Shown: positions 3,356 to 28,684 of the stretch, piece by piece
Layout: every line of letters begins with the position of its first letter
How positions within the stretch are numbered: position 1 is the first letter of the stretch
Source: a virus
Reading direction: 5' to 3' (one strand)
Virus record (IMG/VR): IMGVR_UViG_3300030107_002569
Span: 1-34,598 of that record
Length of the DNA stretch: 34,598 nucleotides
The notes under the pieces: generated by a model
What the model was told of the DNA's origin: nothing
What the model saw: only the letters and a program-made list of their open reading frames with translations
The model's database searches: none
Position numbers and translations under genes: made by a program

Positions 3356-3708
3356 TGACTAGAAAAATAAGGCTAGATCAAATTGATGATGTAATGGCGG
3401 AGGCCGTACAGAAGTTAGTTAGAGCAACGACATTGGAATGGTCAGCAAGGGTAAAGAAAGCAACTCCAGTTGATACTGGGCGGCTAAGATTGGCATGGCA
3501 GACAGATGTTTCAAAGCCATACACAGGAACGATATTAAATAATATGGAATATGCAGAACCAGTTGCTTATGGTGAAAACTTGCCGCCTTCATGGGGTGGG
3601 CAATATCGAACAAGACAAGCAACAGTGAAAGGTTATCCAGAAATCATTGGAAAAGAATTAGAAAATTGGGCTAGGGGAGAATATGAAAAAATCAAGAGGG
3701 GCATCTAA
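3355..3708 (+). CDS. Tail completion protein, HK97 gp10-like
   Basis: 117 residues. The core VKKATPVDTGRLRLAWQTDV is the signature of the HK97 gp10-like family ('TPVDTGxLRxS/AW'), followed by strand and turn segments with MEYAEPVAYGE. The C-terminus is a charged helix (IIGKELENWARGEYEKIKRG). Family members act at the neck where tail meets head. One-base overlaps with both neighbours support coupled translation. Confidence 0.8.
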   Translation: MTRKIRLDQIDDVMAEAVQKLVRATTLEWSARVKKATPVDTGRLRLAWQTDVSKPYTGTILNNMEYAEPVAYGENLPPSWGGQYRTRQATVKGYPEIIGKELENWARGEYEKIKRGI

Positions 3709-4124
3709 TGGCAGCCGTTGACTTAAACACAATCAGATCAACTATTGAAGGGCGATTAGCAACAGAGCTTGCAAGCAGCCCTGTCATCCCTGTTGTGTTT
3801 AATAATATGGCTTATGACTCAACAGGCGTTGAATCATTTGTCCAGTGTCAAGTTAGTTTTGGTGCAAATGTTTATTTAACTCAATCAAGTGATTCTCATA
3901 ATAATGTTGTTGGTCTAATTCTTCTAAATACTTACACCCCAGAAGCGACAGGGGCAGGAGCAAATTTAACCATTGCAAAAAGGATAAGAGATTTATACAA
4001 CCGCCAAACAGTTTCCAGCGTAATCTTTGATGCACCTGTTGGCCCTGAAACATTAACGGGTGCCCCTGATGGTTTTTATCAAACACAGATTAGAATAACG
4101 TTTGAAGTCTTTGAAAATCTTTAA
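3708..4124 (+). CDS. Tail terminator protein (DUF4128-like)
   Basis: 138 residues starting MAAVDLNTIRSTIEGRL. It alternates helices and strands and ends with TQIRITFEVFENL, as in tail terminators of the lambda gpU/DUF4128 type, which cap the tail tube and help join it to the head. It follows the gp10-like gene and precedes the tail tube gene, the normal place. It overlaps both neighbours by one base. Confidence 0.65.
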   Translation: MAAVDLNTIRSTIEGRLATELASSPVIPVVFNNMAYDSTGVESFVQCQVSFGANVYLTQSSDSHNNVVGLILLNTYTPEATGAGANLTIAKRIRDLYNRQTVSSVIFDAPVGPETLTGAPDGFYQTQIRITFEVFENL

Positions 4125-4270
4125 TGATGGAAATTACAGAAGAGATGCTCGATGCAATCGAAGCGGTGAAGGGTTTTAGAGATCCAGCTTATTGGGATCC
4201 TCGTTGTAAGAGATACATGGAAAAAAACAAAACAGCCGCCAAGAATGTAAAAGATACTAAAAAAGGTTAA
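4124..4270 (+). CDS. Small hypothetical protein (48 aa)
   Basis: A 48-residue frame starting at an ATG that overlaps the terminator stop (TAATGATG). An N-terminal acidic helix (ITEEMLDAIEAVKGF) leads to an aromatic centre (RDPAYWDPRCKRYME) and a lysine-rich tail. Overlap and position between tail terminator and tail tube argue that it is translated. I do not recognise a family. The second ATG at 4127 is an equally possible start. Confidence 0.5.
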   Translation: MMEITEEMLDAIEAVKGFRDPAYWDPRCKRYMEKNKTAAKNVKDTKKG

Positions 4271-4719: not shown

Positions 4720-4746
4720 TAGCATTAAATAAACAACCCCTAAATT

Positions 4747-22918: not shown

Positions 22919-23134
22919 TTAATTAATGGGGTTGTTTAAAGTGTTTTGCCATTCTTCAATATCGCTACGGTGATACCGCACAAAACGAGAATGGTTATTT
23001 GGTTTACGAATGACTCGCCATTTGGGGCCACTCGGTCTCCCATTGCGGCTTTTGGTACGCCACAGCCTTAGAGTCTGGGGTTTTATTCCAAGCTCAAGGG
23101 CAAGTTCATCAGTCGTAAGTAGTTCATTAGTCAT
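22919..23134 (-). CDS. Winged HTH DNA-binding protein (excisionase/MerR-like)
   Basis: 71 residues. LLTTDELALELGIKPQTLRL then WRTKSRNGRPSGPKWRVIRK and RFVRYHRSDIEEWQ is the full helix-turn-helix plus wing pattern of the HTH_17/excisionase group, with basic residues in the recognition helix. Such proteins regulate transcription or act as Xis. No integrase is present here, so a regulatory role is more likely. It overlaps the ERF gene by eight bases and sits inside the recombination operon. Confidence 0.75.
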   Translation of the reverse strand: MTNELLTTDELALELGIKPQTLRLWRTKSRNGRPSGPKWRVIRKPNNHSRFVRYHRSDIEEWQNTLNNPIN

Positions 23135-23723
23135 CTTTTTGAAGGATTAAAGAAAGTAAATTGTCCCTATCTTTCTCTGTGATTTTTTCTTCTTTATAGC
23201 GTTTTGAGATATTAGTTTTAAGAACTTTTAATTTATCTGGATCAGATGTTTTTTTAATAAATGCCTCACATTCTCTAATAAATTTATCGTCATTTGTTCG
23301 TTCAATCGGTTTATTCTGAGGCTTGTTTTTCTTTGCAATCACCTCTGGCTCTTCAGTATTCGTATCCATATCAGGTTCAATGCCTAACAGCATCTTGATG
23401 GCATATCTGCGCCCGTAGGTCAAACTTCCACCCCATGTAAACATTGGCTTGTTGCCCATATTCTCAGGTAGGAAGATAGGAAGTTCGCTTGTTATTTCTT
23501 GTCCTGTTTCGACATGAATTAAACGAGTCAAAATAATAGAAACACCATCACAAGTTGTAGTAGGTGGTTGAATTAATATCAATCCGTTTTGATGCAATAC
23601 AGGTTGAACCACTGAAATCATTTCTTCCAGTGGGGTGTATTGATAATTAAACCCTTCTTTGCTCCTCGTTAAACTGGGGCATTGTTGCTGAAATTTTTGC
23701 AACGCTTGATAAAGTTCTTTCAT
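23127..23723 (-). CDS. erf: ERF-family single-strand annealing protein
   Basis: 198 residues from the ATG at 23723, chosen because it forms an ATGA overlap with the upstream stop and matches the usual ERF start (MKELYQALQKFQ); an ATG at 23747 would add eight residues. Family features: FNYQYTPLEEMISVVQPVLH, HQNGLILIQPP, the mid-domain TWGGSLTYGRRYAIKMLLGI and an acidic EPDMDTN. The C-terminus is Lys/Asp-rich and variable. ERF proteins anneal complementary single strands in phage recombination and replication. The neighbouring exonuclease would supply the single strands. Confidence 0.88.
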   Translation of the reverse strand: MKELYQALQKFQQQCPSLTRSKEGFNYQYTPLEEMISVVQPVLHQNGLILIQPPTTTCDGVSIILTRLIHVETGQEITSELPIFLPENMGNKPMFTWGGSLTYGRRYAIKMLLGIEPDMDTNTEEPEVIAKKNKPQNKPIERTNDDKFIRECEAFIKKTSDPDKLKVLKTNISKRYKEEKITEKDRDNLLSLILQKDD

Positions 23724-24520
23724 TGTTTTGGGGTTGTAAATGCCCATCGGGGCAAGGTTAATGATTGTACGCCAGATTCACACCAACTAGGATATGAATC
23801 CAATAGTCGGCACTCTGCAATCTTGTCTAGAGCATCCCTAGACAACTTCTGGCCTTCTTCTAAACTCAATTCGTCAAGCTCCCATAATCCAACATCAAAT
23901 GGATACTCTGATTGCACAACAAGAAATACAAACCTTTTAGATTCAGAAACGCCGTTTAAATAGTGCGCCGCCTGCAGATGGTATTTGAAATTAGCAACAG
24001 CCTTTGCAAAGTCATTGGGGTTGGCTCCTGATCGACTCGTTTTAAGATCAACAATCGTTTCTTTATTAATCCAATCAGGTCTACATTTACAAGTTAAACC
24101 GCTTTGCTCGTCATCCCACCAATAAGATTTCTCAGCAATACCAAAACTCAATAACTCTTTTGCTGCTGGTTCTGCAAAAACAGCATCACGCATATTAAGA
24201 GCTAAATCCCAATCTGTTTTGGTGCAAGGTTCTAAGCCTTTTTCTTTTGCTTCCTTTGCTTCTTCTTTTCCCTTCTTAGTAGTCCTAGAAGAAACAACAA
24301 CGAAACGCTTTTCTAATTCGTCTGGTTCTAATACAGCACAATGGGTAAGGGTTCCCAATGCCATTGCAGCCGTTGGTTTTCTTTCTGGTCTGTTTGGATT
24401 TAAAAAACTATTCCAATAAGCTCTAGGGCCATGAGCTGCCATTACTTTCTGCATTGATGCTGATATTGCAGAATCCTTGTGATAATGAGCGTTAGAGATT
24501 TGAACCGTTCCTTTTGTCAT
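23720..24520 (-). CDS. PDDEXK exonuclease (RecE/YqaJ-like)
   Basis: 266 residues. The nuclease core is visible: an early GTLTHCAVLEPDE (His60), Glu130 in EKSYWW, Asp149 in CRPDW, Asp158-Leu-Lys160 in IVDLKTSRS and the Gln/Tyr motif in HLQAAHYLNG (Gln183, Tyr187). This is the layout of the RecE-type/PDDEXK-like phage exonucleases that trim dsDNA ends to make 3' single strands. It overlaps the ERF gene (ATGA) and the small gene upstream (ATGA), forming a Red-like recombination module. Confidence 0.88.
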   Translation of the reverse strand: MTKGTVQISNAHYHKDSAISASMQKVMAAHGPRAYWNSFLNPNRPERKPTAAMALGTLTHCAVLEPDELEKRFVVVSSRTTKKGKEEAKEAKEKGLEPCTKTDWDLALNMRDAVFAEPAAKELLSFGIAEKSYWWDDEQSGLTCKCRPDWINKETIVDLKTSRSGANPNDFAKAVANFKYHLQAAHYLNGVSESKRFVFLVVQSEYPFDVGLWELDELSLEEGQKLSRDALDKIAECRLLDSYPSWCESGVQSLTLPRWAFTTPKQ

Positions 24521-24708
24521 GCTGCCTCCTTATAAAAAGAAGATCCTGGGCCATAGTTCTGCACAAACTTCGGCCAGTTACGCATGATTAAAGCCTTATC
24601 ATCAGGCGTTGCAACTAAAGCTGCTTTTGCTAGTTGCTTAAGGAAAGGACTGCTTTCAGTGGTTTCAAGCACAGAATTAAAGGTATTAAAAACTTCTTCA
24701 GAAGTCAT
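24517..24708 (-). CDS. Small hypothetical protein (63 aa)
   Basis: 63 residues, mostly helical (EEVFNTFNSVLETTESSPFL, KQLAKAALVATPDDKALIMR, NWPKFVQNYG). Its stop overlaps the exonuclease ATG (ATGA), so it leads the recombination operon and may assist it. A perfect inverted repeat lies upstream of its start. I do not recognise a family. Confidence 0.55.
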   Translation of the reverse strand: MTSEEVFNTFNSVLETTESSPFLKQLAKAALVATPDDKALIMRNWPKFVQNYGPGSSFYKEAA

Positions 24709-24755: not shown

Positions 24756-24798
24756 GGGATGTTTTGGCGGCTTGCAGGGGTTGTTGGCCGCCTTACTC

Positions 24799-25059
24799 CT
24801 ATGTCAAAATTTCCTCGCAAGATTCAAGGTCATATAAAACATGGGAGGTTTCTTTTGTTGGGGTTTTTCTTACCCAATGCTTGCCCTCTTCAAGAGTGCC
24901 GTTTTGCCTCAAACTTAATAAAGTACGTTCTGAACGACCTAAATGTTCAGCAGCTTTCTTTTGAGAAACATATTTAGATCCTTCAAGTTTTTTCAAACTT
25001 TTACTAATAGAATCCAAAGATTTTGCAATGCTGCGTAAATATGGATCAGTAGGACTCAT
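24799..25059 (-). CDS. HTH DNA-binding protein (86 aa)
   Basis: 86 residues from the ATG at 25059, which overlaps the upstream stop (ATGA); a GTG at 25077 would add six. An N-terminal helix (YLRSIAKSLDSISKSLKKLE) is followed by a helix-turn-helix reading KYVSQKKAAEHLGRSERTLL and SLRQNGTLEEGKHWVRKTPT, then a final helix (DLESCEEIL). The pattern resembles excisionase-like or MerR-like HTH domains with 'W.RK...'. Probably a regulator of nearby phage promoters. It is co-transcribed with the small secreted protein from promoter P1. Confidence 0.7.
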   Translation of the reverse strand: MSPTDPYLRSIAKSLDSISKSLKKLEGSKYVSQKKAAEHLGRSERTLLSLRQNGTLEEGKHWVRKTPTKETSHVLYDLESCEEILT

Positions 25060-25190
25060 TTTTTGAGTGCCAAACACGCCGCTTGGATATTATTAACCTC
25101 GCAATCTTGACGGGTCATATCTTCCAATGCGGAAGTGGTAACTGCAAAAAATAAAAGGCTGGCAGTAATGCCGAAAATAAAAAGCTTCAT
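25056..25190 (-). CDS. Tiny secreted protein (44 aa)
   Basis: A 44-residue frame with a signal peptide (KLFIFGITASLLFFAVTTSA) and a 22-24-residue mature part holding two Cys (RQDCEVNNIQAACLALKK), which could form one disulfide in the periplasm. A consensus promoter lies 23 bases upstream and the stop overlaps the next ATG (ATGA), so it is well supported despite its size. Such small secreted proteins recur in cyanophages; no function is known. Confidence 0.65.
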   Translation of the reverse strand: MKLFIFGITASLLFFAVTTSALEDMTRQDCEVNNIQAACLALKK

Positions 25191-25212
25191 GGGGTTGTTT
25201 GCTTATACATTA

Positions 25213-25241
25213 ATGATAAAACCAATATCAACAGTTGTCAA
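25213..25241 (-). promoter_or_regulatory. Promoter P1 with direct-repeat operator
   Basis: On the minus strand TTGACA (25241-25236), 17 bases and TATCAT (25218-25213); the start at 25190 follows about 23 bases later. The -35 box lies in TGTTGACAACTGTTGAT, two TGTTGA copies ten bases apart. The same element occurs at P2 and P3. Confidence 0.7.
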
Positions 25242-25250
25242 CACTTAGGC

Positions 25251-25277
25251 AAAAAAAGAGAGGGTTATTCACCCTCT
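25251..25277 (-). terminator. Terminator of the 50-residue gene
   Basis: AGAGGGT (25259-25265) pairs with ACCCTCT (25271-25277), loop TATTC; on the minus strand CTTTTTTT follows. The stop codon of the 50-residue gene (25267-25265) sits in and beside the loop. It lies ten bases before promoter P1. Confidence 0.75.
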
Positions 25278-25417
25278 GTTCTGTCAAACTCGCCGTCTTC
25301 GATGAAATCGGCTAAGTGTTCGACTATGTTGCCGTACTGGTTGGCTTCCTCAGATTCACCGTGTTTGATGATTGATTGAGCCAACGTCTTTGCGGCGGCT
25401 AGTGTGTCGTCGTGCAT
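25265..25417 (-). CDS. Small acidic protein (50 aa)
   Basis: A 50-residue frame reading HDDTLAAAKTLAQSIIKHGE, SEEANQYGNIVEHLADFIED and GEFDRTEGE. It is strongly acidic and helical, with neither signal nor membrane segment. A consensus promoter (P2) and a terminator bracket it exactly, so it forms a one-gene unit. Small acidic early phage proteins often bind host enzymes or mimic DNA; that is a suggestion only. No family recognised. Confidence 0.65.
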   Translation of the reverse strand: MHDDTLAAAKTLAQSIIKHGESEEANQYGNIVEHLADFIEDGEFDRTEGE

Positions 25418-25440
25418 GAAACAAAAGCGTGGACATATCT

Positions 25441-25469
25441 TTTATACAGGAGAGATCAACACCTGTCAA
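25441..25469 (-). promoter_or_regulatory. Promoter P2 with direct-repeat operator
   Basis: TTGACA (25469-25464), 17 bases and TATAAA (25446-25441) on the minus strand, close to full consensus. The -35 lies in TGTTGACAGGTGTTGAT. The start codon at 25417 follows about 24 bases after the -10. Confidence 0.75.
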
Positions 25470-25475
25470 CAAGGC

Positions 25476-25500
25476 AATAAAAAGCCCCGACTAGCGGGGC
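25476..25500 (-). terminator. Terminator of the 54-residue gene
   Basis: GCCCCG (25484-25489) pairs with CGGGGC (25495-25500), loop ACTAG; on the minus strand TTTTTATTG follows. It lies six bases before the P2 -35 box, a tight terminator-promoter junction. Confidence 0.75.
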
Positions 25501-25507
25501 GGTTGAG

Positions 25508-25672
25508 TTAAAAAACTGAAAGATTCATGTTTGAAATAAATACTGCAAAGAGGCTTGATCCTGTAGCGATAAATAAAACTTGGTTGAATCTATCAAGTCT
25601 GTTTAATCTTGCTTTCATTGAACGTGCCCTTTTTAGTAGAGGTGCTTTGTTCAGAGAAGAAAGAGAAGTCAT
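25508..25672 (-). CDS. Small membrane protein with basic N-terminus (54 aa)
   Basis: A 54-residue frame: a basic, Arg/Lys-rich start (LNKAPLLKRARSMKARLNRL) followed by one membrane segment (QVLFIATGSSLFAVFISNM) and a short end. It could sit in the inner membrane with a basic cytoplasmic arm. It is a one-gene unit between promoter P3 and the terminator at 25476-25500. No family recognised. Confidence 0.65.
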   Translation of the reverse strand: MTSLSSLNKAPLLKRARSMKARLNRLDRFNQVLFIATGSSLFAVFISNMNLSVF

Positions 25673-25699
25673 AAAAGAATAGGGGTTGTTGACTTATTT

Positions 25700-25728
25700 A
25701 ATATACATACATCATCAACAGGTGTCAA
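25700..25728 (-). promoter_or_regulatory. Promoter P3 with direct-repeat operator
   Basis: TTGACA (25728-25723), 17 bases and TATATT (25705-25700) on the minus strand. The -35 lies in TGTTGACACCTGTTGAT. It begins right after the stop of the ribbon-helix-helix gene. A further inverted half-site (TGTTGAC on the plus strand, 25687-25693) lies between promoter and gene. Confidence 0.7.
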
Positions 25729-25736
25729 CAAGGGGC

Positions 25737-25967
25737 TTACAATAGAACTTTTTCATCTTTTATTGATTCTTTTTGTAGCCTGTCTAAATCTTTGATCATC
25801 TCTTTTACAAAATCGTTTCTTTCGACTTTCCATTCTTCTTTTAAATATTTATTAATAGCTTTTCTAATTAAACTTGATATAGAGACTCCTGGCTTGACAC
25901 TTGATTTTAATAATTTGTATTGACTTTGAGTAATTTGTATTGAAATTCTATGTAGTTTTTCACTCAT
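25737..25967 (-). CDS. Ribbon-helix-helix DNA-binding protein (76 aa)
   Basis: 76 residues. The ribbon-helix-helix pattern is clear: a strand (HRISIQIT), helix 1 (QSQYKLLKSSV) and a turn, then helix 2 (SISSLIRKAINKYLKEE), followed by a charged helical tail. These proteins bind DNA as dimers on repeated half-sites. It overlaps the ParB-like gene by eight bases and its stop is directly beside promoter P3, whose repeated TGTTGA half-sites ten bases apart suit this fold. That it controls P1-P3 is inferred. Confidence 0.75.
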   Translation of the reverse strand: MSEKLHRISIQITQSQYKLLKSSVKPGVSISSLIRKAINKYLKEEWKVERNDFVKEMIKDLDRLQKESIKDEKVLL

Positions 25968-26943
25968 AAGAAAAAACCTCTGTTGATTTCATTTTAACAA
26001 TATTTGACTGGTCATAATAATCATTGGTATTTTTTATCGTTTGAAAATCAGTGAATGGATCAATATCGGTTTTTTGTATTCTTTGGGGGGATTCACCTTT
26101 TAAAAATTGATAGCCAGCTTTTACACAAAGTCTTAAAGTATCTATTTCCCAAGTTGCCTCTCTTTTTTCTCTCTTTTCTGAAATAATCTTTCTTAAAACA
26201 AGAGGTGCTAAGTCAGTTGAATTATTTGTTTGGAATCTTTGAGAATACCCATTACGACATAAATCAAGCCAAAAAACACTTCTATCAAAAGGACTCATCT
26301 CATGTCTAAATGATTTTTGAGAGTGACAAAGTTCAACATAAATTTTCAAAGCAACAGCAGAAAAAAATGTAGTGTATCCATTAGATAAATATCCTAAAGA
26401 ATCTAATTTTTGAAAATACTTTTGATGTTTTTTATAAATTTCAGAAATCAATTTGTCATATCTACTATTGCCATAGAGATAAGTACCCACATAGGGAGTA
26501 TTTAATTTACACATTGCATTTTTTATCATTCCACATTCTTTTTGTTTCATCAATAGTCCACCGACTGTGATTCTTTCTGATTGCGTTCTTTTTTTACCAT
26601 TGTCGAGAAGTTTTGCAACTTTATGAGGCATATTCCTTACAACACAAAAAGCAACTGTTTGATTTGATTCAATGACTGCGTGTAATCTGTGTTGTCCATT
26701 TATTAAAATTCCATTTTCATTAAAACAAAGACAATCCCAACTTAAGTAAAATTCTTTTTTTCTCATTAAAGTAGCTAATTCTTTTATCCACATTTTTTTT
26801 ATAATCCTGTTGTTTTTAAAATTACAAGTTAAATAATTTTTTGCTTTTTCAGGGCTTATTAATTCAACTTGAAAGTCAATTAAATCTAAATTTAATTTTA
26901 AATCTTTGTATTCAAAAAGTTTTGACTGGGCTTGCACCGTCAT
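25960..26943 (-). CDS. ParB/sulfiredoxin-fold-like protein
   Basis: 327 residues. The key stretch DCLCFNENGILINGQHRLHA at about 68-87 has the 'xxGQHRLxA' motif of the ParB/DGQHR fold; a helix-rich region follows, then a polar C-terminus. Upstream, residues 35-60 (KNYLTCNFKNNRIIKKMWIK) also fit. The protein is Cys-rich and more AT-rich than the tail genes, suggesting later acquisition. No ParA is present, so plasmid-type partition is unlikely. A role in DNA binding, nucleotide hydrolysis or anti-host defence is possible. It overlaps the RHH gene, forming a two-gene unit. Confidence 0.65.
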   Translation of the reverse strand: MTVQAQSKLFEYKDLKLNLDLIDFQVELISPEKAKNYLTCNFKNNRIIKKMWIKELATLMRKKEFYLSWDCLCFNENGILINGQHRLHAVIESNQTVAFCVVRNMPHKVAKLLDNGKKRTQSERITVGGLLMKQKECGMIKNAMCKLNTPYVGTYLYGNSRYDKLISEIYKKHQKYFQKLDSLGYLSNGYTTFFSAVALKIYVELCHSQKSFRHEMSPFDRSVFWLDLCRNGYSQRFQTNNSTDLAPLVLRKIISEKREKREATWEIDTLRLCVKAGYQFLKGESPQRIQKTDIDPFTDFQTIKNTNDYYDQSNIVKMKSTEVFSYE

Positions 26944-26999: not shown

Positions 27000-27236
27000 T
27001 TAAGGTTTCTTAACTTCAACCTCAAAACCTTTTCCCCTCAATTCTTCAATTCGATATTCTTGTATTTTACTCAACCTTCCATTCTTTGCCTTGACCTCTA
27101 CAAATTTACATTCATCAGGTTTACATAAAATCAAATCAGGTAAGCCAGTTTTGTTGCTCATAATAATCTTGATCACTGTCCACCCTTTCTTTTCGTACTC
27201 CTTTATCAATTTCGCTTGATAGACCTGTTCTCTCAT
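27000..27236 (-). CDS. VRR-NUC nuclease
   Basis: 78 residues, a stand-alone VRR-NUC domain. The PD-(D/E)xK core is present: Asp34 in TGLPDLILC, Glu47-Val-Lys49 in FVEVKAKNG and Gln59 in SKIQEYRIEEL. Such small phage enzymes cut branched DNA (Holliday junction or flap). The first 33 codons overlap the helicase 3' end in another frame by 101 bases; they match the domain start, so the overlap is probably real. It is likely to work with the helicase. Confidence 0.88.
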   Translation of the reverse strand: MREQVYQAKLIKEYEKKGWTVIKIIMSNKTGLPDLILCKPDECKFVEVKAKNGRLSKIQEYRIEELRGKGFEVEVKKP

Positions 27237-28455
27237 AGCGGTAATGTTTAACGGTGAAATTTTCTTTATTTTGAACAGTTTTAAATACTTTAGGTTCTAG
27301 CGTTTTTTCTGCAAATACATAATGGATCTTTGGCGGATTCTTACGACCTAAAAAGCTTAACCTTTCCCTACTTTGTAAATAAGACAAAGCGGAATAATCA
27401 ATCCCAACAAATACCAAATCATCAGCAGCCGATAAGTTAACCCCTTCTCTAGAGCTTCTTACCTGACCAATAAAAACCTTACTCTCATCCTCGTTAAAAA
27501 TCTCTGGGTTATCCGTTGCACTATCTCCAAACACCTTTTTTAACATCACTCCCTCGGCTTTAAAGCAATACAAAATGGCTAACCGATTCTTAAATGTTTT
27601 TTTTATATATTCAATTTTTGTATAGTCAAAAATAACAGTGCCATGGTTCTCTGTGATCACATGGCCATTTGAAAGCTGCCTTAATTTACTCATAACCTTA
27701 CTTCCACTATCAGCTAAAACGCTCCTACACCTCGGACTACCAATAACCCCATCTTTAATAATTCTCAAAATCATTCTATAAGTTTTTTTCTTCATCTTTA
27801 CCAGATGCACCTGCTCAACAATTTCAACCTGAAATCCTGCATCCCTCTGGGTCATCTCAACTACATAAGGTTTAATTGCTTTTAATACTTTGTCTTCGAT
27901 CACCTCTGAATAATCATTAACCTCTATCCCAGTTCCTACTTTTTTCTTTTTGACGTTCACATAATTATCAGCCCATCTATAAAAATTTTGGTACTGACTC
28001 CATAAATGCTGCGTACAAGAATATTGATGATACAACTGGCTAAAACTTTCAGGTGATGGCGTTCCACTCATCAAAATTACATTCTTGCAAACTAAATTCA
28101 ATATTTGCTGTTGCCTTTGGCTTGCTTTTGGAAAGGCACCAATACTATGAGCCTCGTCAACAACGACACAATCCCATGTTTGCCCTACAAACTTTTTTAC
28201 CTGTTCAAAATTAGTTACCGTTACAAAATCCTTTAATCCCATTGCTCTCACATCTTTTTCAATGCTTGGTATTGCCTTTTTCTTAGTCACAAATAAAACA
28301 TTCTCTTTTGCCAAATCTCCTATCACTTTCAAAACTGTGATTGTTTTACCTGTTCGACATTCTCCACATAAATAACCAAAACCAAACTCTGCTACTAATC
28401 GTGTTAGCTTGGCAGCCGCTTCAATTTGATACTTTCTAAATTCAATCATTGACAT
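27136..28455 (-). CDS. SF2 DNA/RNA helicase
   Basis: 439 residues from the ATG at 28455; longer starts at 28482 and 28539 would run into the divergent promoter and gene. Motifs: Q-like EFRKYQIEAA, Walker A GECRTGKT (31-38), Walker B DEAH (100-103), motif III MSGTP, then IGQVRSSREGVNLSAADDLV (motif V) and YLQSRERLSFLGR (motif VI with its Arg finger). The family covers SNF2/ERCC3-like phage helicases used in replication or recombination. It overlaps the VRR-NUC gene by 101 bases. Confidence 0.88.
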   Translation of the reverse strand: MSMIEFRKYQIEAAAKLTRLVAEFGFGYLCGECRTGKTITVLKVIGDLAKENVLFVTKKKAIPSIEKDVRAMGLKDFVTVTNFEQVKKFVGQTWDCVVVDEAHSIGAFPKASQRQQQILNLVCKNVILMSGTPSPESFSQLYHQYSCTQHLWSQYQNFYRWADNYVNVKKKKVGTGIEVNDYSEVIEDKVLKAIKPYVVEMTQRDAGFQVEIVEQVHLVKMKKKTYRMILRIIKDGVIGSPRCRSVLADSGSKVMSKLRQLSNGHVITENHGTVIFDYTKIEYIKKTFKNRLAILYCFKAEGVMLKKVFGDSATDNPEIFNEDESKVFIGQVRSSREGVNLSAADDLVFVGIDYSALSYLQSRERLSFLGRKNPPKIHYVFAEKTLEPKVFKTVQNKENFTVKHYRYERTGLSSEIDKGVRKERVDSDQDYYEQQNWLT

Positions 28456-28476
28456 GGGGTTAGTTGGTGTTATCTT
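28449..28476 (+). promoter_or_regulatory. Rightward promoter
   Basis: TTGACA (28449-28454), 16 bases, TATCTT (28471-28476). Transcription would begin about 28483, so the GTG at 28505 rather than the ATG at 28454 is the start of the next gene. It overlaps the start of the leftward helicase gene and shares its -10 position with the opposed promoter. Confidence 0.6.
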
Positions 28477-28499
28477 ACCCATATCTAATACAAAAACAA
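28472..28499 (-). promoter_or_regulatory. Leftward promoter, face to face
   Basis: On the minus strand TTGTTT (28499-28494), 16 bases and TAAGAT (28477-28472), a weaker match. Its -10 coincides with the -10 of the rightward promoter, so the two cannot be occupied at once. It would drive the helicase gene. Confidence 0.4.
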
Positions 28500-28504
28500 C
28501 CCCA

Positions 28505-28684
28505 GTGGATTTAGACACAGAGTTAAAGACAATCAACACTCAGCTAACAACATCCCAAATAATATGGCTTGATGAAAATAAACCTCCTGAACTTTCTAGG
28601 GCTGGTTTTATTAGAACAATTATTCGTCATGCAATGACGAAACAAAAGCTTGATGCTTACGAATCACAGATAAACAGATCATAA
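28505..28684 (+). CDS. Ribbon-helix-helix DNA-binding protein (59 aa)
   Basis: 59 residues from a GTG at 28505; an ATG at 28454 would start upstream of the predicted transcript. A strand region (ELKTINTQLTTSQIIWLDEN) leads to a turn and helix (SRAGFIRTIIRHAMTKQKLD), the ribbon-helix-helix pattern. It stands at the divergence point and just before the primase-helicase gene, so it probably represses or switches the opposed promoters. Confidence 0.65.
   Translation: MDLDTELKTINTQLTTSQIIWLDENKPPELSRAGFIRTIIRHAMTKQKLDAYESQINRS

Follow-up and report, generated by a model that had tools for sequence, protein, structure and literature searches.

A tandem direct repeat marks the promoters of a variable gene cassette array at a fixed locus in related phages

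Three small transcription units in a phage genome record belong, judged by comparison with related sequences, to an array of accessory-gene cassettes at a fixed locus, and the array promoters are mostly strong sigma-70 cores overlapped by a tandem direct repeat that resembles an operator. The window analysed is the whole IMG/VR record IMGVR_UViG_3300030107_002569, a stretch of 34,598 bases carrying siphovirus-type genes. The explanation that we consider best combines the cassette array with a single phage-encoded reader of the repeat and a joint shut-off of the cassettes, and taken as a whole we give it about an even chance. One operator delimits about 70 families of array proteins, mostly small ORFans that are hard to assign, in an abundant marine phage group. 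These ORFans are tied to one locus and one candidate regulator, beside DNA methyltransferases, which allows candidates to be ranked in screens for anti-defence and takeover functions, and the shared tag offers a handle on how marine phages control and use unknown small genes.

The window contains exactly three copies of TGTTGACAnnTGTTGAT, all on the minus strand, at 25227-25243 (P1), 25455-25471 (P2) and 25714-25730 (P3), and at zero mismatches the element had no match in 100 dinucleotide shuffles. A first-pass annotation of this DNA had described the triple element, with a half-site period of 10 bases, and it proved exact in sequence and position; each promoter carries TTGACA, a 17-bp spacer and a -10 box, again as described. 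P3 (operator TGTTGACACCTGTTGAT; -35 TTGACA at 25728-25723, -10 TATATT at 25705-25700) and its CAACCCC leader (25682-25688) precede the gene of a 54-residue basic protein with a hydrophobic C-terminal stretch (25508-25672), which is matched at 100% in the related locus L017. The P3 promoter and leader are common to loci L001, L097, L183 and L192, and in L001 and L097 a different gene, of family F29, stands behind them. An intrinsic terminator, GCCCCGCTAGTCGGGGC-TTTTTATTGC (25484-25500), adjoins P2 and occurs in near-identical form in L001, L097 and L186. P2 (operator TGTTGACAGGTGTTGAT; -35 at 25469-25464, -10 TATAAA at 25446-25441), which was missing from a program-made promoter list, its -10 box lacking the final T, precedes a gene for a 50-residue acidic protein (25265-25417) with homologues at 73% in L017 and at 53% in L186 and L265, in the last two behind a different operator (type II, below). 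A second intrinsic terminator, AGAGGGTGAATAACCCTCT-CTTTTTTTGC (25259-25277), adjoins P1 (operator TGTTGACAACTGTTGAT; -35 at 25241-25236, -10 TATCAT at 25218-25213), and here the CAACCCC leader (25191-25197) lies immediately 5' of the ATG of a 44-residue gene with a hydrophobic N-terminus and two cysteines (family F0; 25056-25190). This gene overlaps by ATGA, at 25056-25059, the gene of an 86-residue HTH/Xis-like protein (24799-25059), an optional cargo gene which is the second on the P1 transcript; the P1 unit is bicistronic and P1 therefore drives at least two genes. All these units lie on the minus strand, and neither the P1 nor the P3 gene has a Shine-Dalgarno sequence, CAACCCC preceding the ATG instead.

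The three reading frames, of 44, 50 and 54 residues, and both terminators are present as sequence features, as had been reported from the first reading. The accompanying picture of a terminator abutting the next promoter holds for the sub-clade of the window, where it is typical, but not overall, since only 16 of 129 array promoters show it.

Relatives were collected by a pattern scan of IMG/VR, yielding at least 120 stretches, and by a second scan which added the -10 box. Across IMG/VR the pattern lacks specificity on its own, many of the stretches being single chance matches with neither -10 box nor leader, and it becomes specific once combined with a -10 box, a second copy or a CAACCC leader. 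The matches listed in the two scans included over 60 related loci, of which many have two to four copies of the element, and in these loci its site is constant, between a VRR-NUC gene and a 63-residue gene followed by a DUF3799 nuclease gene. In the window the upstream border is formed by the VRR-NUC gene (27000-27236) and a SNF2-like helicase gene (27136-28455), and the downstream border by the 63-residue gene (24517-24708) and the DUF3799 nuclease gene (23720-24520), all on the minus strand. An ERF annealing gene, together with the DUF3799 nuclease gene, adjoins the array.

Between these borders the content is hypervariable. The complete arrays (n = 44) range from 602 to 4019 bp, carry one to four promoters and have 44 different gene contents. 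Their named cargo comprises C5 and N4/N6 DNA methyltransferases, an HNH endonuclease, and RHH, ParB-like and HTH proteins, and the remainder are mostly without assigned function. Family F0 has 51 members and is nearly universal as the final promoter-led cassette, so that the promoter-led gene at the array end is nearly always a relative of the 44-residue P1 gene. The first array genes of several phages lack an operator of their own, as does the optional RHH (25737-25967) and ParB-like (25960-26943) pair of the window, also on the minus strand. From this cargo we consider it reasonably probable that the array serves counter-defence. The proposal that P1 to P3 drive a 'host-takeover' set is supported in spirit, in that a variable accessory cargo with DNA methyltransferase families in 20 of the 44 complete arrays would fit counter-defence or host takeover.

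Loci found by a pattern necessarily show it, and 80 loci were fetched instead by means of the DUF3799 nuclease protein. Of the 56 unique regions upstream of F0 family genes in these loci, 55 contain GTTGACAnnTGTTGA. Other cassette promoters in the protein-fetched loci were chosen solely for a hexamer resembling the -35 box, one resembling the -10 box, CAACCC and an ATG, and TGTTGA occurs at position +2 of the spacer in 38 of 39 of them, one of the 38 belonging to an F0 gene. None of 11 divergent RHH/primase promoters carries TGTTGA at that position. In the accessory cassettes, a set which was partly selected by pattern, the TGTTGA bases carry 1.9-2.0 bits each as against mostly 0.2-1.1 for the other bases of the spacer, and about 40 cassette families that are unrelated and differ in their flanks retain the second half-site. 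Promoter-like copies (zero or one mismatch, followed by a -10 box) are confined to the array in near-complete relatives; genome G004 has one extra one-mismatch match, without a -10 box. This repeat, termed type I, consists of tandem TGTTGA with a 10-bp period and overlaps the -35 box. The motif search over relatives which the first-pass annotation had advocated bears out the shared operator-like repeat at P1 to P3, and because the repeat marks the cassette promoters of relatives, co-regulation of the three units is very likely, as read from these sequences.

That annotation had also held that absence of the repeat from relatives with conserved small genes would speak against it. The repeat is indeed literally absent from L186, the sole exception among the F0 upstream regions, and from its relative L265, which have the same small genes and the CAACCCC leader but carry instead two to three tandem AGAGGTGTA repeats every 10 bp. 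The operator sequence there differs, and the idea of an operator is strengthened by it. Further phages of this clade II were found by a protein-based scan with the L265 helicase; they share the array layout, cassettes and leader of the type I phages. Their type II repeat, AGRGGTGTA, is tandem with a 10-bp period, non-palindromic, and overlaps the -10 box. Counting overlapping matches separately, clade II gave 60 matches to tandem AGRGGTGTA against 0.8 in shuffles, and none was found in the type I genomes.

The operator repeat is thus uniform within a phage and changes as a set between lineages. Such a whole-array switch in an otherwise conserved array points to a change in the specificity of a trans-acting factor, and we hold it highly probable, from these comparisons, that the operator is common to the array and read by such a factor. 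Since both operator types overlap core promoter elements, repression fits better than activation, and the factor is quite probably a repressor. Owing to the switch, a few proteins and reporters would also suffice for a direct test of whether regulator and site co-evolve.

In the mechanism that we propose, one phage-encoded factor would recognise the tandem repeat of the array promoters. Its protomers would sit side by side, head to tail, on a single face of the helix and keep RNA polymerase out. On entry, the host RNA polymerase would fire all the cassettes together, to be followed later by their joint shut-off, and the cassettes, to judge by their cargo, would serve early host takeover and counter-defence.

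The best candidate for the reader is a 71-residue core wHTH protein (22919-23134, minus strand) of the HTH_17 family, RdfS/BldC/Xis-like (Pfam HTH_17, E=1.4e-7, over the cut-off); L302 and L311 carry clade II counterparts. Its AF2 model (pLDDT 81.6) gave its best match to RdfS (8dgl; Z 8.1, rmsd 2.2, 56 aligned), followed by the GIsul2 excisionase (Z 7.7), BldC (7.1), the DNA-binding protein 4lhf of phage P2 (6.8) and Xis of phage Pukovnik (6.7). The Foldseek E-values were weak, and Foldseek alone produced no significant match for either this protein or the RHH core protein discussed below; the modelled fold is of the RdfS/BldC/Xis group, and a Z of about 8 lends it support but, in a domain of this small size, does not settle the matter. 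The main mechanistic argument is that the 10-bp repeat matches the binding mode of the RdfS/BldC/Apl group, whose members assemble head-to-tail on direct repeats one helical turn apart (PMC7498355, PMC11963761): RdfS places a protomer on every 10 bp (PMC11963761), and Apl of phage 186 acts as a repressor at direct repeats spaced by a single turn of the helix (PMC7498355). Moreover, all 76 of the type I locus records have the predicted recognition helix [KR][PT]QT[LV]RLWR. Of the eight type II records, seven have either SLFTLQQWR or SSHTLVLWR, the exception being L186 with a type I wHTH, and these counts are non-independent because there are several locus records per contig. The covariation amounts to about two lineage changes and follows phylogeny, and the wHTH gene lies outside the array, with no operator linkage of its own. 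The candidate was at first discarded because the protein is common to L001 (type I) and L186 (type II), and it was reinstated when the seven other type II records showed a different helix. That the wHTH protein reads the tandem repeat has, in our estimate, a little less than an even chance.

In L186 (IMGVR_UViG_3300030107_004041) the right arm is that of clade II and the array is of type II, whereas the left arm is of type I; the contig also has an N-gap upstream of SNF2. It is either a natural recombinant or a chimeric metagenomic contig, with its junction near the 44-residue F0 gene.

Tentatively, and with more doubt than confidence, one may go further and regard the operator as an admission tag, such that any gene recombining in behind it would gain control by the phage wHTH. 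Types I, II and perhaps III would then form compatibility groups which co-evolve with the wHTH helix and limit the trade in cassettes, and non-temperate phages would have kept an RDF-type protein as the master regulator that governs an island of counter-defence genes. The possible third type occurs in L303 and L313, where two CCTTCATAAGG-like boxes lie 20 bp apart and the wHTH recognition helix is SIDTLRMWR; it is seen at one promoter in two related contigs and we do not claim it. Besides these two loci, array promoters without a type I or type II repeat occur in L299 (family F29) and L309, and in the distant relative L315 no array promoter could be recognised by eye.

The first-pass annotation had named the RHH protein at 25737-25967 and the HTH protein at 24799-25059 as regulators to be examined. 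Both are optional and missing from most element-bearing genomes, and their presence in few of these marks them as cargo and not as a general reader; among the relatives examined, the HTH protein was found only in L017 and L301, the latter having a clade II array. Some relatives, namely L265 (at 3635-4188) and L186 (at its start), have two small genes with weak similarity to a DnaA N-terminal-like domain, placed between SNF2 and the RHH core gene. As readers of the type II repeat they were rejected as weak candidates, since no copy was detected in several type II phages and, judged by eye, apparently similar genes precede SNF2 in part of the type I phages.

A different phage protein could read the repeat under the same co-repression logic, either one that has escaped recognition or the 59-residue RHH-like core protein at 28505-28684 (plus strand), which has a GTG start after CAACCCC at 28497-28503 and is divergent from SNF2. 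This gene is regulator-like and is found wherever a contig covers its position, and L186, which joins clade II right-arm genes to type II operators, would place the reader gene on the RHH side. The protein has no Pfam match; its AF2 model (pLDDT 79.6) shows two helices and matches ParD2 (Z 4.7) and Reg576 (Z 3.2). However, its contact strand KTINTQL is identical in the window, a type I phage, and in type II phages, whereas more than 10 type I phages have KAIQIYL, so that the strand does not track the operator. The type II repeats are also non-palindromic, unlike typical RHH half-sites. The allele goes instead with the gene's own divergent promoter: the SNF2/RHH intergenic promoter (28449-28684) comes in two types, paired with two RHH alleles (KTINIQL and KAIQIYL). 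On these patterns the RHH core gene is likely to be autoregulated, with a specificity switch of its own, and its product probably reads that promoter and not the array operator. That another phage protein of this kind is the reader we regard as unlikely.

Alternatively, the repeat may be mainly an anchor for recombination, promoter homology allowing a phage annealing protein to shuffle the cassettes, as proposed for PeSL. Such a role would account for the extreme shuffling, in which 44 of 44 arrays differ, and would suit both the nearby ERF annealing and DUF3799 nuclease genes and the terminator and promoter modules common to the sub-clade of the window. It leaves unexplained the fixed TGTTGA beside a variable spacer, and the switch of whole arrays to another repeat of the same 10-bp period. 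As the main function it is decidedly unlikely, and it may well be an additional role of the repeat.

Tandem direct repeats of 10-11 bp are typical of response regulators of the OmpR/PhoB type, and a host regulator of this kind reading the operator would couple the cassettes to the state of the host. Such an array occurs in a marine alphaproteobacterial single-cell genome, AG-426-I04 (uncultured marine Alphaproteobacteria), on an 8.4-kb contig (L282, CACGZD010000016.1). The remainder of this 1.5-Mb genome, outside the array contig, contains no site at zero or one mismatch and gives no sign of a host regulon, which disfavours host control if the AG-426-I04 cell is the host. Different operators also occur on contigs that share a metagenome and have flanking genes which are nearly identical. 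We consider this reading very unlikely. Hardly credible is the notion that the promoters are strong by common descent only, with a spacer TGTTGA that is intrinsic and has no trans-acting reader: TTGACA and a near-consensus -10 box do occur throughout and the F0 promoters are orthologous, but the second half-site is kept in the unrelated families with their diverged flanks, is missing from the divergent promoter of the same phages and is replaced as a set in clade II.

The single-cell genome is the only host lead; the cultured relatives of the terminase infect picocyanobacteria. The TerL of the window shares about 52% identity with its counterparts in Synechococcus phage KBS-S-2A and Prochlorococcus phage MED4-184, and the tail genes include the minor tail protein L/GpJ type. 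A homologue of F0 occurs in MED4-184, with no operator element in the stretch read. The window had no nucleotide match in the phage collection, the HTH protein at 24799 had no protein match in the search for cultured relatives, and no tRNAs were found. No tyrosine or serine integrase or CI-like gene was seen among the Pfam and PHROG matches of the window proteins, in a record that may be incomplete, and a repressor of the lysogeny type is therefore not expected. With the same reservation about completeness, the system looks like a switch for early genes in a phage that is not temperate.

Several known systems resemble the array in part, and by the tests made it belongs to none of them. T4-type phages have PeSL (promoter early stem-loop) cassettes (Arbiol 2010; Comeau 2014; summarised in PMC4503421), in which promoter-terminator units recur between small variable ORFans. 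A part in gene shuffling has been attributed to them, and they lie in a hyperplastic region with shuffled content, comparable with the 44 contents of the 44 complete arrays. On that summary PeSL belongs to T4-type myoviruses, whereas the present record is siphovirus-like and of 34.6 kb. The pairing of promoter and terminator is seen here at P1, P2 and in L001 and L097, but overall only in the small share of array promoters given above; most cassettes lack a terminator, and the tandem operator switches as a set between lineages, both unlike PeSL as there described. The start-associated sequences (SAS) of cluster K mycobacteriophages (PMC3203893) likewise recur 5' of many small-gene start codons and are accompanied by an additional upstream repeat, the extended SAS (ESAS), which may be promoter or operator (PMC3203893). 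ESAS are imperfect inverted repeats of 17 bp, whereas the present repeats are direct, with a 10-bp period, and lie on the -35 or -10 box; the leader is CAACCCC and not the SAS motif, and the phage group is another.

Apl of phage 186, the wHTH recombination directionality factors and BldC (PMC7498355, PMC11963761) share the direct repeats one helical turn apart and are cooperative wHTH proteins, with repression of early promoters, for which the predicted reader here is a candidate; in our case no attachment site or integrase was seen in the window, and the sites lie at several separate promoters. The stoperators of cluster A mycobacteriophages (PMC6550527) provide a parallel in that many asymmetric sites are served by one repressor and consensus and repressor change together between lineages. 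They are scattered over the genome and for the most part lie at a distance from promoters, whereas the present sites are tandem and restricted to the array promoters of one locus, and no lysogeny genes were found among the window's annotated proteins. Finally, a conserved early promoter of archaeal viruses marks anti-defence genes (PMC11065993), and is similarly a common regulatory sequence before many unrelated small early genes; here the phages are bacterial, the signal is a predicted operator and the cassette functions are putative.

The CAACCCC motif occurs 13 times in the window, against 2.4 expected, and CAACCC leads most cassette ATGs in relatives. Copies just 5' of the start codons of promoter-proximal genes, in place of a Shine-Dalgarno sequence, were noted, besides those of P1, P3 and the RHH core gene, at 22928-22934 and 4734-4740. 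Being retained with both operator types, the leader is independent of the operator, and it is possibly a translation or RNA-level signal. A hairpin, GGCGGC-CAACAACCCCTGCAA-GCCGCC, at about 24770-24790 on the minus strand, 3' of the array, displays CAACCCC in its loop and is kept in relatives, including L186 and L303. At the opposite end, in many relatives (for example L160 and L107), the VRR-NUC stop codon (CCT TGT TGA) appears to form part of the TGTTGA operator at the first array promoter and, judged by reading frame, the border gene would overlap the array.
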